Shown here: in pieces, positions 2,347 to 31,745 of the stretch
Position numbering within the stretch: the first letter of the stretch is position 1
Layout of the letters: each line of letters opens with the position of its first letter
From: Chitinivibrionia bacterium
Lineage (GTDB): Bacteria > Fibrobacterota > Chitinivibrionia > Chitinivibrionales > Chitinivibrionaceae
Reading direction: 5' to 3'
DNA length: 33,344 nt
Assembly (NCBI GenBank): GCA_009779925.1
Contig: WRAZ01000024.1
Location: 1-33,344, forward strand
Made by a program: the position numbers and the translations under genes
Notes under the pieces: model-generated
What the model was told of the DNA's origin: nothing
Seen by the model: only the letters and a program-made list of their open reading frames with translations
The model's database searches: none

Positions 2347-4869
2347 TTATTCCATTCTGTAAATACTTATTATTGTAGTATCGTCAAATCTGTCGGTTGT
2401 CTTTCTGAAACCGTTCACATCTTCGCAAATTGCGGTTGTAGCATCCTGTGAACTGCTGTATTTTCGCTCGGTAAGTTTTTGACGCAAACGCTTGGACGTG
2501 TAAAATTTCTTCTGTTTGTTTTGTGTATCGGTAACGCCGTCTGTGTATAAAAACAGCAACTCGCCCTTTTCGATAACACAGGATTGCGCCGAAAAATTCG
2601 CCGATTCGCAAATTCCTATCGCAGGACTTGTCGGTTTTAATTCCGCTCGTATTTCACTGTCGGCAGAAAGCAAAAATCCGGGAGTATGCCCTGCGTTTAT
2701 GTATTCAAAAACGCCATTATGCGGGTTCAGAACTCCGAAAAGAAGCGTGGTAAACATAAAACGCCCCTTGTTTTTCTCGTTGTATTCGGCAACGTAGTCG
2801 TTTGTCGGAAGAACGGATTTGAGCGGAGTGTCGCCGTTCTGAGAGCAGTTGTCGGTCAAAACTTCCAAAAGGGTTTTGGTTAGCGCCATAAAAAGCGCGC
2901 TCGAAACGTCTTTTCCGCTGACATCTGCAATAAGTATAACAATTTTATCATCACTGAGGCGATAAATGTCGTAAAAATCGCCAGAAACTTCTCTTGCGGG
3001 CTCATACACAGCGGCAATGTTGAAACCGTCGGGTTGATATATGGTTTTCGGCAGGAAACTTCTTTGAATGTCGCTACCGAGTTCTAATTCGTGTCTTACG
3101 CTTTCGAGTTCGCGGTGCTCTCGTTTTTGTACTTCTTTTTGGCGGCGCAGAAGTTGCTCGGTATGAATGGTTTCCGAAGTCAATTTGCCCAGAATTTCAA
3201 ACGTACTGCAATCGCAATCTAAACGGCTGTCCAAAACAAAATACAAAACGCCAAATTTGTTGCTACGGAAATAAAGCGGCTCTGTAACAATCACAAATGG
3301 CTTTTTAGCGCTGTCCAAAACCAACTGCGGTAAAATGCCGTTTGCAGTGTCGGGGGCGACATTCACCCGTTTCCCGTTTTTTACTGCAAGAACAAGCTGC
3401 GTCTTGGCAAACGTACTTATGGACGACTGTTTATATTGCACAAAAAAGAAAGTGGAAAATCCGAGTTCGGGAAATCTTTTCGCCATAACATCCAAAATTC
3501 CTTCATAACATTCTGCGTTGGAAATTTCAAGTTTAAACTCGAACATCGCAAGGAAATCGGCTCTTGTTTTGAGTTGTTTTGCGCTCTCATATTGATTAAG
3601 CATATCAAATCTCAAATCACCCGCGCGCGACAAAAGCATATCGGCGTAAGCAAATCTTTCGCGGGTAAGGTGCGCAATGGCATAATACCAAAAAACGCGA
3701 AATATTTGCGAAAGCTTTGTAAGTTTGCTTCCTTTCATAACCGTGTCGCGAAATTCCTTACGTATATATTTTAAAAACATTTCATTTTCTTGGGTATTTA
3801 CGTCGTCGCAGAATGAATAGGTTAAGCCGCGAAGTTGCTCTTTATCGAAACTTCCCGCCTCGTGCGTGTTCAGGAAAAACTCCAAAACTTTATTGTACAA
3901 GTCTTCTTTTGACAATTTTTCTTTTGTAAGAACGGAAGTCAGCAGGGCTTTTCGGACGCGCCCTTTCGGAATATCGTAATCAAAAAAGCAGCCGCAAGAA
4001 TGGCGTTTTACAAGTTCTGTGCGAAGCATTACGCCTTGCGAAATGTCTTTTCCGTCGAGTTTTTCCAAAAGCATTATAAGCGCTTCTTCACCGAGGCGGC
4101 GCAACGGCTGGTCAACGGAAGTCAGCGGCGGAAATGCGCATTTGCCTTCGTTTGTGTTGTCAAATCCTACAACCAAAACGTCCTGAGGAACGCTCAAACC
4201 GAGTTCTTTAAGAGTTTCCATAACACCGAAAGCCGTTTCGTCGTCAATACATACAATAGCATCGTACGGAATTTTTCCTCCGTTTGCTTTTGCTATTTTT
4301 AATACTGCGTCCGAACCTGATTTTCTGTCGAAATTTCCGGAAAAAATGCTTTCTTGCGGAAGTGATAGTCCGCGCAAATTCAATGTTTCCGTAAAAGTGT
4401 TGAGACGCTCGGCTACTTCCGAATTATTTTCAGGACCGCTTACAAACGCAAAATTACTGCATTTGTGTTCTTCTGTCAGGTGGATTGCCAACTGCATCAT
4501 CCCACTGCGGTTATCTATGGTTGCCGCGGGAATTTCACTCGACAAAGGAAGTATGGACACTATCGGAATGTCGCCGTAGCCCGAAATAAATTTGTCGATT
4601 TTTTCTTTCGATATATAACTGCAAAGCGAACCGCTTATTATTATTCCGTCGATTGATGCGAATTTCGGAATTTCGTAAAGCACATTTCGATTGGGTTCGT
4701 ATTGGTCGCTCGGCGAAACTTCGAGAGAGCCTCCCAAAAGAGCGACAACATTTACATTTCTTTCCTGCGAAACTTTTTTTATGCCGTTCCACACTCCCGA
4801 CTGATAATATCCGTCCAGACTTTCTATTAAAACGGCAATAGTTTTTTCTGCCTTATCGATTTTTTTCAC
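2347..4869 (-). CDS. LacI-type periplasmic-binding-like sensor fused to PP2C (SpoIIE) phosphatase
   Basis: An 840-aa cytoplasmic signalling protein. Residues ~10-295 form a LacI/RbsB-type sugar-sensor fold (AVLIESLDGYYQSGVWNGI, the FAFVSGP strand, DAIVCIDDETAFGVMETLKELG, then VGFDNT and PPLTSVDQPL). There is no helix-turn-helix before it and no signal peptide or membrane segment. Residues ~300-570 are an unassigned helical plus GAF-like region, followed by a coiled coil (~575-605). The C-terminus is a SpoIIE/PP2C serine phosphatase with SGDFYDIY, IADVSGKDVSSALFMA, INAGHTPG and LYTDGVTD, which carry the metal-binding aspartates. Inference: ligand binding to the sensor controls dephosphorylation of an anti-anti-sigma or similar partner. 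The start is GTG with AGGAG seven bases upstream. Confidence 0.85.
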   Translation of the reverse strand: MKKIDKAEKTIAVLIESLDGYYQSGVWNGIKKVSQERNVNVVALLGGSLEVSPSDQYEPNRNVLYEIPKFASIDGIIISGSLCSYISKEKIDKFISGYGDIPIVSILPLSSEIPAATIDNRSGMMQLAIHLTEEHKCSNFAFVSGPENNSEVAERLNTFTETLNLRGLSLPQESIFSGNFDRKSGSDAVLKIAKANGGKIPYDAIVCIDDETAFGVMETLKELGLSVPQDVLVVGFDNTNEGKCAFPPLTSVDQPLRRLGEEALIMLLEKLDGKDISQGVMLRTELVKRHSCGCFFDYDIPKGRVRKALLTSVLTKEKLSKEDLYNKVLEFFLNTHEAGSFDKEQLRGLTYSFCDDVNTQENEMFLKYIRKEFRDTVMKGSKLTKLSQIFRVFWYYAIAHLTRERFAYADMLLSRAGDLRFDMLNQYESAKQLKTRADFLAMFEFKLEISNAECYEGILDVMAKRFPELGFSTFFFVQYKQSSISTFAKTQLVLAVKNGKRVNVAPDTANGILPQLVLDSAKKPFVIVTEPLYFRSNKFGVLYFVLDSRLDCDCSTFEILGKLTSETIHTEQLLRRQKEVQKREHRELESVRHELELGSDIQRSFLPKTIYQPDGFNIAAVYEPAREVSGDFYDIYRLSDDKIVILIADVSGKDVSSALFMALTKTLLEVLTDNCSQNGDTPLKSVLPTNDYVAEYNEKNKGRFMFTTLLFGVLNPHNGVFEYINAGHTPGFLLSADSEIRAELKPTSPAIGICESANFSAQSCVIEKGELLFLYTDGVTDTQNKQKKFYTSKRLRQKLTERKYSSSQDATTAICEDVNGFRKTTDRFDDTTIISIYRME

Positions 4870-25946: not shown

Positions 25947-27158
25947 TTATAAGTGTGTTATCGGTACTAATCTTATTCCCCGTCTTGCAATATTGGGCAA
26001 AACGTTAATAAATGCCTGTACAAAATTGTCGTCCGCCGCAACAAAAATTGTGGAATTTCTGTTTTGCGCAACCCTCTCGGCAACTGAGTTTATCTGCCTT
26101 TCCCATTCGGCAACGCTAAGCCCTCTTGCACCGTCCGCGGGCAACCAAAAAGTTATGGTATCGTAAGGAGCGTTAATTTCGCGCGCAACTTCTCTTGCCG
26201 TCGAAGTTCGGGCAGTGCGGCGAGCGTCCACAAACATTATGTTGCGCCTTCTTATGGTATTCAGAAAATTTTGCGCGGTAGTTCGGGAATTAAGCACAAG
26301 ATTTCCCGTTTGCGCAAAAAAACCGACCGCGTTCGGATACATCCTTGTAAGCATATTCATTCTTTCGTTTATCCGGCGACGATTGTCTGCCTGCCTGATT
26401 GTGTATCGTCTCTGCTCAAAATGCGTCTGGTTATCCTCGATGGGAATTTCAATTAAGACGGGCAAGAGCAACTGGCTAAAAATTTCGGGAACGGTATCTC
26501 TCACTTCTCTGCGACGTCTTTCTTCCTCTTCACCGTCGGGAGAAACCGAATGAATAACGGAAGAATTCACCTGCCAAGGCGTTAAAACAAAACTCAACGG
26601 CTGACCGAGTTCCAAAAGCGCAAGACTTTTTTCGGGCGATAACCTATCAAGTCCCCTTATCAAAAACGCCGCGCGCGCGCTTGGCGCCGCAACTTCGTTG
26701 GTTATTACTATTTCACATATAATTTTTTCGCTCGGTCGCCGTTTGTTTTCAAAAACCATTCGGACAAATTCCCGCCGCCCCGCTACTCGTCCTCTGCGAA
26801 CGTGCATAGATTCCACTATTCGATATTCCGTATTTTCGACGACGGCAAATATCTGCATAACAAATTCTTCTATAAGTTTCGCGCGCGGGAAGCGAATTGT
26901 TATAACGGTCTGTAATTCTTCCAAGTCGATGTCGGTGGTAAAATTATCGTCGTTTATCCCAAAGGAGCGAGCGGTTATGCGTAATTTTTCCTCAAACAAA
27001 AAGTCCCGTCTCTGAATAAACGCCGCCGAGGTCGAAAACTCGCTCTGCCCTCCCCCGATTGCGGCTCTGACAATCAGCAAAATCACGACGGACAAAAGCG
27101 CCGCCGCCAAAATTGCGGCAGGGATAATTACTATGAGTTTTTGCTTTTTATCGTTCAT
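25947..27158 (-). CDS. divergent polysaccharide deacetylase (YibQ-like), membrane anchored
   Basis: A 403-aa protein with one N-terminal membrane anchor (LIVIIPAAILAAALLSVVILLIV). The C-terminal ~200 residues follow the PF04748 (YibQ) plan: an N-terminal strand pair, a segment with YPNAVGFFAQ in place of the usual NHMGS, then IMFVDARRTARTSTAREVAREINAPY and a final FVAADDN helix. The canonical metal ligands are hard to see, so activity is doubtful. Residues ~40-190 are not assigned. Promoter TAGTATTTT lies at 27187-27195 on the minus strand. Confidence 0.65.
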   Translation of the reverse strand: MNDKKQKLIVIIPAAILAAALLSVVILLIVRAAIGGGQSEFSTSAAFIQRRDFLFEEKLRITARSFGINDDNFTTDIDLEELQTVITIRFPRAKLIEEFVMQIFAVVENTEYRIVESMHVRRGRVAGRREFVRMVFENKRRPSEKIICEIVITNEVAAPSARAAFLIRGLDRLSPEKSLALLELGQPLSFVLTPWQVNSSVIHSVSPDGEEEERRRREVRDTVPEIFSQLLLPVLIEIPIEDNQTHFEQRRYTIRQADNRRRINERMNMLTRMYPNAVGFFAQTGNLVLNSRTTAQNFLNTIRRRNIMFVDARRTARTSTAREVAREINAPYDTITFWLPADGARGLSVAEWERQINSVAERVAQNRNSTIFVAADDNFVQAFINVLPNIARRGIRLVPITHL

Positions 27159-27186
27159 TTACGCGCTTTCCCCAAAATGTTCGCGT

Positions 27187-27195
27187 AAAAATACT
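27187..27195 (-). promoter_or_regulatory. promoter element before the deacetylase-like / pdxJ unit
   Basis: On the minus strand TAGTATTTT, about 28 bases before the start codon, with TTGATA 13-15 bases upstream of it. Confidence 0.4.
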
Positions 27196-29241: not shown

Positions 29242-29275
29242 TGCGCGTAAAAGACATGGATAAAAAGGAGTTGTG

Positions 29276-30025
29276 ATGACTGATTTTCAAGCCAAAAAAT
29301 TGGAAGAAGCCGAAAATAACATACAGAACGACAATTACAATGACGCTATGCTTACACTTATTGAGTTGATTGACGAAGACCCAACTCTTGCCGCTCCATA
29401 CAACAATTTGGGCTTTATTTCGTGGCAACAGGAACGTTGGGCGGACGCTTTCGGACTATTCAGAGAAGCCGTAAGATTAGACAACACCAACGAAGATTAT
29501 TTAAACAATCTCCTTGACGCGGCGTTGAAACTCAAAAAAATCGAAGAAGTCGCTCCCATTTTTGAAAAGGCGGCGAATGATAATCACGACAACGAAAACA
29601 TCACAATAATTCACACAGCGATAACCTCGCCCGACAATGATATTTACCAAAGCGTACGCGCATATTTGCTGGGATATTGGCATCCGCTCATCGAAGAGGG
29701 TGAACGCGCCATTAAAAACGGCGAATTTGTCGATGCGATTACAGCGTTTGTTAATCACATTGATGAAGTCAGACCTTGCGCGGAAGCGTATAACGGGCTC
29801 GGAATTATACAGTTTAACGCAAAAGAATACGAAGAGGCGTTCGGACTGTTTTTTGAGTCGCTCAAATACAATCCACTCAATCAGGACGTTTATTTGAATA
29901 TGTTTGACTGCGCGCTTGAATGCGAAAGAGAAGACGCCGCGTTGCAAATTTACGAATTTTGGGCAAAAGAGTATCCGATGTTAGAGCAAATTCGCGGTGA
30001 AACCGAAATCTTAATAAAAAAATAA
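29276..30025 (+). CDS. tetratricopeptide-repeat protein
   Basis: 249 aa, cytoplasmic (no signal peptide). Two TPR clusters are visible: residues ~5-75 (AENNIQNDNYNDAMLTLIEL, then AAPYNNLGFISWQQERWADA) and ~145-215 (GEFVDAITAFVNHI, then EAYNGLGIIQFNAKEYEEAF). Such proteins are protein-protein adaptors; the partner cannot be read from the sequence. AAGGAG precedes the ATG; a GTG just before it is closer to the ribosome site than usual. Confidence 0.85.
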   Translation: MTDFQAKKLEEAENNIQNDNYNDAMLTLIELIDEDPTLAAPYNNLGFISWQQERWADAFGLFREAVRLDNTNEDYLNNLLDAALKLKKIEEVAPIFEKAANDNHDNENITIIHTAITSPDNDIYQSVRAYLLGYWHPLIEEGERAIKNGEFVDAITAFVNHIDEVRPCAEAYNGLGIIQFNAKEYEEAFGLFFESLKYNPLNQDVYLNMFDCALECEREDAALQIYEFWAKEYPMLEQIRGETEILIKK

Positions 30026-30074: not shown

Positions 30075-30110
30075 TAAAGTATTTCAAAAAACCTGCCGAT
30101 AGCATATAAT
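30075..30110 (+). promoter_or_regulatory. overlapping sigma-28-like and sigma-70-like promoter before a small RNA
   Basis: TAAAGTAT (30075-30082), 12 bases, then GCCGATAG (30095-30102). The -35 is identical to that of the flgM promoter, with one extra spacer base. TTTCAA-N17-TATAAT (30082-30110) overlaps it. Confidence 0.5.
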
Positions 30111-30114
30111 GAAA

Positions 30115-30232
30115 AACGAAAGATGCACCTCCCTTGTGTGTTTCTGCTGAACTTCCCCAATTTGTGAAGCAGATTATCTTTAATACGTTTTTATAAAGAA
30201 AATGCTGTCTTCCCCAAGGCAGCATTTTCATT
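30115..30232 (+). ncRNA. candidate small RNA with C-rich anti-Shine-Dalgarno-like loops
   Basis: About 115 nt between the promoter and a strong terminator, with no convincing gene (only a 14-codon frame without ribosome site). It contains GCACCTCCCTTGTG, CTTCCCCAA inside a CTGCT/AGCAG hairpin, and a second CTTCCCCAA in the terminator loop. Repeated unpaired UCCC(C) is typical of RNAs that pair with ribosome sites of target mRNAs. I do not recognise it as 6S, tmRNA or SRP RNA. Confidence 0.5.
30199..30228 (+). terminator. intrinsic terminator of the candidate small RNA
   Basis: A 13-bp stem (AAAATGCTGTCTT / AAGGCAGCATTTT, one G-U) with loop CCCC, followed by T-rich sequence. Confidence 0.85.
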
Positions 30233-30309
30233 TTTCTCTTCACATTCTATTTTGCTGATAAGTTCTCGTTCTCCACGTTTTGCTGTAAAAAAACACAAAA
30301 AAGCATTCG

Positions 30310-30377: not shown

Positions 30378-31745
30378 ATGAAACAAAGAACTATAGCAAA
30401 AAGCGCTTCCATTTCGGGAGTTGGACTTCACACCGGAGTTAAAGGAACAATTACACTTCACCCTGCGAAAATTGACAGCGGAATAACATTCGTGCGAATA
30501 GACACGCCGCAAAAAACCGAAATTCCCGCAGATATAGACTATGTTGTCGGGGATGCGCTCAGCACAGCAATCGGCATCGGCGACGTAAAAATTTTCACGA
30601 TAGAACACTTAATGGCGGCATTGGCGGCAACAAATATTTCAAACTGCCGAATTGAAATAGACGCAGAAGAAGTTCCGTTAATCGACGGCTCAGCAAGACC
30701 GTTCATTGACCTGATAACGGAGGCGGGAGTGCTGAAACAAGACGCGGAGCAGGAATTTATAGAATTTGACGAGCCGATGTGGCTTTACAACGAAAACAGC
30801 ACAGCTTTGGCGGTTTTCCCAGCGGAAGACTACTACATAACGCTTATGGTGGACTACAATTCTCCGATAATCGGCGCGCAACACACAACAATGTTTAATT
30901 TTAATAATTTTGAAAAAGATTTTGCGCCTGCCAGAACGTTCTGCTTTTTATCGGAAATTGAAGAATTGGCAAAACGAGGGCTTATTAAAGGCGGCACCTT
31001 AGACAGCGCAATGGTTGTGCAGGATATTCCGTTTGACGAAAAAATGGCGGAGGAATTGAAAGCAAAATTTCCAAATTCAAAAGAGATTTTCCCCGGAACG
31101 AACGGCTTTGTGAACAATCGCGAACTGCGTTTTCCGAACGAACTTTGCAGACACAAGGCGGTTGATTTGGTAGGCGACTTGTATCTGCTCGGAAAGCCGA
31201 TAAGAGGACACGTTATGGCGGCTCGCAGTGGACACGCGGCAAACCAAACATTCGCAAAAAGAGTGCGCGAATATCTGAAAAAGAAGAAAGAAGAACAGCA
31301 CAATATCTCATACGCCGACATTATGAAAATGCTTCCTCACCGCTACCCGTTTTTGCTTGTTGACGGCGTTGAAAAAATCATTCCCGGAGAAAAAATTTCG
31401 GCATACAAAAACGTCTCTTTCAACGACCATTTCTTTCAAGGACATTTTCCCGGAAACCCGATTATGCCGGGCGTTTTGCAATTAGAAGCGTTGGCGCAAG
31501 CAGGCGGAATTATGGTTTTATATGAAGATTTAGGCAAGGAAGAAAACGAGAACAATAAGAAAAATATGCTTTATATGGGAATAAACGAATGCAAATTCAG
31601 AAATCCCGTGCGCCCGGGCGATAAACTCGTTTTGGAAGTAAATCTTGTCAAGAAAAGGCGCAACATTTTTGTTTGCGAAGCAAAGGCGAAGGTTAACGGA
31701 AAAATAACCTGCGAAGCGGAATTAACTTGTATGGTAAATGCTTAA
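30378..31745 (+). CDS. lpxC/fabZ: bifunctional LpxC deacetylase / FabZ dehydratase fusion
   Basis: Two lipid A and fatty-acid enzymes in one 455-aa chain. Residues 1-~300 are LpxC, which deacetylates UDP-3-O-acyl-GlcNAc: zinc ligands H77 (TIEHLMAAL), H259 and D263 (CRHKAVD), and general acid H286 (SGHAANQ). After a Lys/Glu-rich linker, residues ~312-455 are FabZ, with the catalytic His356 in GHFPGNPIMPGV and Glu370 in QLEALAQAGG. FabZ supplies unsaturated acyl-ACP while LpxC commits to lipid A, so the fusion links the two pathways. The same fusion is known in Bacteroidetes, Fibrobacter and relatives. GGAGG precedes the ATG. Confidence 0.96.
   Translation: MKQRTIAKSASISGVGLHTGVKGTITLHPAKIDSGITFVRIDTPQKTEIPADIDYVVGDALSTAIGIGDVKIFTIEHLMAALAATNISNCRIEIDAEEVPLIDGSARPFIDLITEAGVLKQDAEQEFIEFDEPMWLYNENSTALAVFPAEDYYITLMVDYNSPIIGAQHTTMFNFNNFEKDFAPARTFCFLSEIEELAKRGLIKGGTLDSAMVVQDIPFDEKMAEELKAKFPNSKEIFPGTNGFVNNRELRFPNELCRHKAVDLVGDLYLLGKPIRGHVMAARSGHAANQTFAKRVREYLKKKKEEQHNISYADIMKMLPHRYPFLLVDGVEKIIPGEKISAYKNVSFNDHFFQGHFPGNPIMPGVLQLEALAQAGGIMVLYEDLGKEENENNKKNMLYMGINECKFRNPVRPGDKLVLEVNLVKKRRNIFVCEAKAKVNGKITCEAELTCMVNA

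Follow-up and report, generated by a model that had tools for sequence, protein, structure and literature searches.

RsaE and RoxS of the Firmicutes are small RNAs (sRNAs) that bind their targets through unpaired C- or CU-rich segments. LhrC, also from this phylum, blocks the translation of lapB by three redundant CU-rich sites (PMC4132741). In E. coli, UhpU, MotR, FliX and FlgO are sigma28-dependent sRNAs, the first three of which are reported to pair with fliC mRNA and alter flagellin levels; the set is UTR-derived and was studied as Hfq-linked by RIL-seq, and MotR and FliX pair within coding sequences (PMC10578931). The flagellar sigma factor likewise controls CjNC1/CjNC4 (CJnc10/CJnc170, or FlmR) and CJnc230 (FlmE) of C. 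jejuni, which act on the 5' leaders of flagellar mRNAs (PMC4626219, PMC11187230). CjNC1/CjNC4 are ~44-47 nt in length, have sigma54-dependent genes as predicted targets and repress independently of Hfq in an E. coli reporter, and CJnc230 binds the ribosome binding sites of its targets flgM and Cj1387c (PMC4626219, PMC11187230).

The locus described here looks like a real bacterial small RNA of an undescribed family, as judged from sequence and conservation. It lies in a 33,344-nucleotide stretch (hereafter the window) from a 2.5-Mb, 98% complete assembly, whose origin is probably the termite gut, judging by its nearest relative, a Chitinivibrionia MAG, and by what has been published on these bacteria. 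Similar to the E. coli sRNAs, the family appears to be under flagellar sigma control, but it has its own intergenic gene, predicted pairing at the Shine-Dalgarno (SD) sequence and leader, hosts in which no Hfq was detected, and no counterpart in Rfam. It shares with the Campylobacter sRNAs the flagellar sigma control and the leader of a flagellar mRNA as the site of action (both predicted here), whereas it is ~125 nt long, folds into a three-way junction and appears to target flagellin paralogues whose promoters are of the sigma28 type. Unpaired C/CU-rich binding segments are also found in RsaE/RoxS and LhrC, from which the present sRNA differs in matching no Rfam family, in its narrow predicted target class and in its flagellar promoter. 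We therefore judge it, on sequence comparison, to be a new sRNA family, set apart from its known relatives by its sequence, by where it would bind and by its selectivity among paralogues; a limited literature search found no Fibrobacterota sRNA for which a target is described. It suggests that flagellar-sigma sRNA control of flagellins extends beyond Proteobacteria and Campylobacterota to hosts in which Hfq is not detectable, and offers a possible route for many-flagellin bacteria to set their filament composition.

The features of the locus, all on the plus strand, are as follows.

30075-30102, +, sigma28-type promoter, from sequence: TAAAGTAT at 30075-30082, 12-nt spacer (30083-30094), GCCGATAG at 30095-30102
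30105-30110, +, TATAAT box over the expected start site, from a scan; lacking in most other family members
30110-30238, +, sRNA gene of ~125 nt with its start inferred from the promoter; family of 24 genomes, no Rfam match
30113-30124, +, P1 closing stem, 5' arm (partner 30176-30191), from the fold; arm-swap 0/5000 permutations
30125-30141, +, P2 stem-loop GCACCUCCCUUGUGUGU with loop CUCCCUU; near-invariant in all members, first pair covarying G-C/A-U
30143-30173, +, P3 stem-loop TCTGCT...AGCAGA with loop CUUCCCC, from the fold; arm-swap 0/5000
30176-30191, +, P1 closing stem, 3' arm, from the fold and the arm-swap test
30198-30238, +, intrinsic terminator with a 14-bp stem (30198-30229), a CCCC loop in CUUCCCCAAG and a U-rich tail, from scan, fold and comparison

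The sequence-only reading had proposed a flgM-like -35/-10 promoter with a 12-nt spacer and an overlapping TATAAT box, all of which were located at these places by sequence and scan. The pattern TNAAG(T/C)-N15-(N)CGATA recurs at identical spacing in 22 of the 23 complete sRNA family members, against a chance background of ~0.006 matches per 85-nt window; the 23rd has equal promoter spacing and one base different beside the core. This conservation is not built into the covariance model, which held no upstream sequence. A motif at fixed spacing together with a genome that encodes FliA (sigma28, E = 4e-79) is the sequence signature expected of a sigma28-dependent sRNA. The TATAAT box possibly represents a second, sigma70-type promoter that is not conserved in the sRNA family. 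Compared to the 12-nt spacer of all 23 complete members, the spacer of 13 measured divergent-flagellin promoters is one base shorter; by this comparison, the spacer length noted in the first reading is a conserved feature that sets the sRNA apart.

The three-way junction P1/P2/P3 is the minimum-energy fold in 22 members, and in G030 when P1 is forced. Against dinucleotide shuffles, the segment 30115-30238 folds with z = -5.9, much of which is due to the terminator; the core without terminator has a mean z of -2.8, with individual members ranging from -5.3 to -0.2. RNAalifold on a MAFFT alignment recovered P2 alone, because P1 and P3 are both too variable for MAFFT, and an arm-swap test was therefore used. 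The sequences of P1 and P3 are highly variable yet complementary: own arms out-pair genome-swapped arms (0/5000 permutations each), with an excess of ~5 standard deviations for P1 and ~10 for P3 when kinship is ignored.

The gene-free interval runs from the stop of a TPR-protein gene at 30025 to lpxC at 30378. It contains the C-rich segments of the earlier reading, namely CACCTCCCTT at 30126-30135 and CTTCCCCAA twice, at 30152-30160 and 30209-30217. Among these three supposed anti-SD segments, two are conserved across the family, whereas the third, in the terminator loop, is clade-specific: the CCCC loop was observed solely in the family to which the window belongs (G000, G001, G004 and G002), where it is a possible third contact with the target. 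The terminator itself stood with its hairpin, loop and T-rich tail, although the scan gives 14 pairs in place of the 13 proposed. The loops of the folded members are C-rich, and the GGA-loop hairpin array of CsrB/RsmZ-type CsrA sponges is absent from them. The expected 16S 3' end TGGATCACCTCCTTT is present in the window's genome, and P2 therefore reads as a copy of the anti-SD with one extra C, fitting the AAGGGAGG of the targets. An encoded small peptide is unlikely: the window has a 13-codon ATG frame (MKNERCTSLVCFC), the upstream ATG of G020 meets an immediate stop, and no frame is evidently common to the members.

Homologues in the order were collected by BLAST of the intergenic region, followed by a covariance model built from five sequences and a second model from 24. 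Among the 167 phylum genomes searched with the covariance models, the sRNA occurs in 24 of the 40 genomes of one Fibrobacterota order, with window 30110-30238 as the type example, and was not found in the other 127. All 24 members share CACCUCCCUUG and the second C-rich loop CUUCCC(C), and each has CACCUCCCUUGUGUG, one of them with GCGUG. The 23 complete copies all possess the three-way-junction fold, covarying stems and the sigma28-type promoter; the candidate L111 is a true family copy that lies at the edge of its contig, and L120-L123 were spurious on inspection. The conservation in 24 genomes is the decisive evidence that the locus is more than chance. It also covers promoter, fold and loops, where the sequence-only reading would have given way had nothing been conserved beyond the terminator. 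Rfam release 15 (RsaE/RoxS included if held there) gave no gathering-level match at the locus, and a relaxed Rfam search with five family members gave chance-level matches only.

In 18 of the 23 loci, across families, the sRNA directly follows the gene of a TPR-repeat protein (window 29273-30025), and a functional tie between this protein and flagella is possible. In the window the TPR gene ends ~50 nt 5' of the promoter, so the supposed sRNA might be the 3' UTR or terminator of this gene, or else a leader element of lpxC. However, all members carry a separate promoter for the RNA, with unvarying spacing, as well as a conserved fold and loops, and the TPR gene is not adjacent in some of them. 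Moreover, the terminator is located 140 nt ahead of lpxC, which adjoins the sRNA only in G000 and G001. We thus regard the absence of an independent sRNA as very improbable, and we rejected lpxC as a linked partner. The C-rich loops that the earlier reading expected upstream of lpxC in relatives are conserved as to two of them, but with lpxC as the downstream neighbour only in those two genomes.

BLAST of the sRNA against its own genome gave a sole other significant match, in antisense (E = 4e-6), to CTTGGGGAAGTTTGCGGCAGATACACACAAGGGAGGTTATTATG, a stretch of contig C4 that takes in a flagellin gene's start codon together with its SD and leader. The complementarity between the sRNA and this leader/SD is near-continuous over ~35 nt, and G001 has the same antisense flagellin-leader match with its own sequence variant. 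The duplex energy is -67.6 kcal/mol, compared to -38.3 for the runner-up of 75 own-genome leaders, and cofolding gives an interaction of about -36 to -38 kcal/mol. This ranking covers leaders from sampled genome stretches, and statements on the whole genome come from the BLAST, pattern and covariance-model searches. The target leader (L002 1387-1530) has three hairpins 5' of the SD, each with a GGGG tetraloop (UUGGGGAA); the terminator loop could meet a further GGGG hairpin in the window's family, although the predicted duplex makes no use of it. A flagellin-like gene precedes the main target (L002 480-605 / L009 ~2400-2540, minus strand), with a sigma28-type promoter, GGGGAAG sites and the SD ACAGGGAGG; it is a possible second target with a modelled interaction of -23 kcal/mol. 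We also tried TTGGGGAA as a genome-wide leader motif and rejected it, as most of the 30 copies read look coding (173 copies in the own genome against 40 of a reversed control).

To cover the order, we listed ACAAGGGAGG at 3-9 nt 5' of ATG, read nearly all of the sites and called flagellin-like genes by a profile from canonical flagellins plus one target. Of these sites, 45 lie before divergent flagellin genes and 54 before other frames. The sequence complementary to the second loop, GGGGAA, occurs at -75..-22 in 36/45 of the flagellin leaders against 3/54 of the others, or 0/51 when three controls with doubtful start calls are left out. As the 45 targets were chosen by their SD, enrichment at the SD is partly circular, whereas that of GGGGAA is not; the extended SD flank CACAAGGGAGG is present in 39/45 flagellins and 11/51 others (p = 7e-11). 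The tested target proteins match Pfam Flagellin_N, or fall just under its cut-off and match Flagellin_C. Several target leaders with repeated GGGGAA sites occur per genome. In several further genomes, covariance-model hits fall on flagellin leaders in antisense orientation. By contrast, the SDs of canonical flagellins (MRIN..., MPRIN...) are mostly of the AACAAGGAGG type, and GGGGAA is absent from all of their leaders that were read; the median predicted interaction energy is -14.7 kcal/mol for targets and -2.2 for canonical flagellins (p = 2e-7). The divergent flagellins are probably minor filament components. Taken together, pairing between sRNA and leader is strongly supported at the sequence level: as expected of an SD-occluding trans-acting sRNA, the RNA has a conserved and accessible stretch that can base-pair with the SD of its targets.

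The earlier reading had proposed GGGG-type ribosome sites as targets, of which the anti-SD idea holds, yet the targets are a particular divergent flagellin group and not a general class. An sRNA with broad anti-SD action, similar to RsaE or LhrC, which represses many G-rich ribosome sites with the divergent flagellins merely most conspicuous, would fit the likeness of the P2 loop to the 16S anti-SD and the moderate interaction of other ACAAGGGAGG genes (median -9.4 kcal/mol; p = 2e-4 against the targets). Against such breadth, the 75 ranked leaders contain one outlier, a flagellin leader, the second site is nearly restricted to flagellins, and the sRNA co-occurs with motif flagellins; we consider it quite unlikely. 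Flagellin leaders might instead be sponges that titrate the sRNA away from true targets among other genes, as the number of leaders per genome and their repeated GGGGAA sites would allow, and as in C. jejuni, where flaA mRNA titrates CsrA (PMC4894983). But the SD at the start codon is within the pairing, as in a regulated target, and neither the own-genome BLAST nor the 75 ranked leaders revealed a better alternative target, leaving little probability for sponging.

In 23/45 target leaders, against 1/54 controls, the interval from GGGGAA to the SD contains CsrA-like sites. Their sequences in L209 (~370-450), L221, L223 and similar leaders are ACAGGATGT or AGGGATG, which we take to be close to the CsrA consensus. 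CsrA is encoded in 33 of the 40 genomes, often on a contig shared with flagellin genes. In C. jejuni, flagellin is controlled by CsrA-FliW (PMC4894983), likewise post-transcriptionally and at the leader, but by a protein, whereas in the present case this region is predicted to be occupied by a complementary RNA. The sRNA might accordingly pair with leaders mainly to displace or compete with CsrA, the real regulator together with FliW, with activation, stabilisation or a change in timing as the net effect. However, the predicted pairing spans the SD itself and would be expected to block translation, and the window's own target leader, which has the longest pairing, is without a CsrA-like site. 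We consider this account unlikely, although both modes of control may coexist on the leaders, and part of the leader conservation may be due to CsrA sites.

Flagellins are present in 38 of the 40 order genomes, and the two without them are also without the sRNA. Motif flagellins occur in 23/24 sRNA genomes and in 2/14 flagellated genomes without the sRNA (Fisher p = 4e-7, kinship ignored). The two exceptions, G015 and G018 (86% and 77% complete), have target leaders with no sRNA detected, and G010 has the sRNA without an exact-motif flagellin. The flagellated G003, G021 and genera g6/g11 lack both the sRNA and ACAAGGGAGG flagellin leaders, which suggests either a joint loss or an older state; many g6/g11 genomes have flagellin frames of 600-860 aa instead. 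In addition, the nucleotide just before CUUCCCC in the sRNA changes together with the nucleotide just after GGGGAAG in the leader: GGGGAAGC leaders accompany GCUUCCCC sRNAs in 19/24 cases versus 4/24 (p = 3e-5, kinship ignored). Signs that sRNAs have in general co-evolved with the leaders of their own genome are weak, the own pair being better than cross-species pairs in 25/41 by duplex energy, and complementarity beyond the conserved core is clearest in G000 and G001.

The family, its fold and promoter motif, its complementarity to the leaders and its co-occurrence with the targets can all be read directly from the genomes; transcription of the sRNA, binding in the cell, repression and a phenotype are what we infer. 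The best explanation, which we hold to be likely, is a sigma28-dependent, trans-acting and Hfq-independent sRNA that represses divergent flagellins by pairing with their SD. We propose that sigma28 (FliA) drives an RNA of ~125 nt that folds into the three-way junction and ends at the intrinsic terminator. The P2 loop CUCCCUU, which closely resembles the 16S anti-SD but has one C more, would pair together with its 3' flank with the target SD region CACACAAGGGAGGUG, and the P3 loop CUUCCCC with GGGGAAG further upstream in the leader. Given this antiparallel order of sites (SD with P2, upstream element with P3), the leader would be held at two or three points. The covered SD would block the ribosome without Hfq and cap or delay the synthesis of divergent flagellins; translational repression is predicted from this occlusion. 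No Hfq scored over the cut-off in the 40 order genomes, where a control search recovered Hfq of E. coli and others, and hence the host is without the detectable Hfq on which an Hfq-dependent sRNA would rely.

Canonical flagellins, with mostly AAGGAGG and no GGGGAA element, would escape. As both the sRNA and many of its targets have sigma28-type promoters, an incoherent feed-forward loop that limits the divergent flagellins is predicted, in which the sRNA probably tunes which filament proteins get made. The motility link suggested by the sequence-only reading is supported by the promoter at fixed spacing in all 23 complete members, the encoded sigma28 and the predicted flagellin-mRNA targets. 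More tentatively, in a proposal that we rate just short of an even chance, the family might separate flagellin paralogues via a one-base SD expansion, by which mRNAs with GGGAGG plus GGGGAAG are silenced and AAGGAGG flagellins translated, giving an RNA-programmed filament composition without detectable Hfq. Since predictions exist for its promoter and fold as well as for its targets and the sites of pairing, the sRNA is directly testable in an E. coli reporter.

Two further observations concern the window itself. A single 455-aa frame at 30378-31745 is presumably an LpxC-FabZ fusion, and its matches elsewhere are either full-length or cover just the first ~298 residues. Another intergenic hairpin at 27155-27195 displays a TTTCCCCAAAA loop, and is perhaps a terminator with a similar loop.
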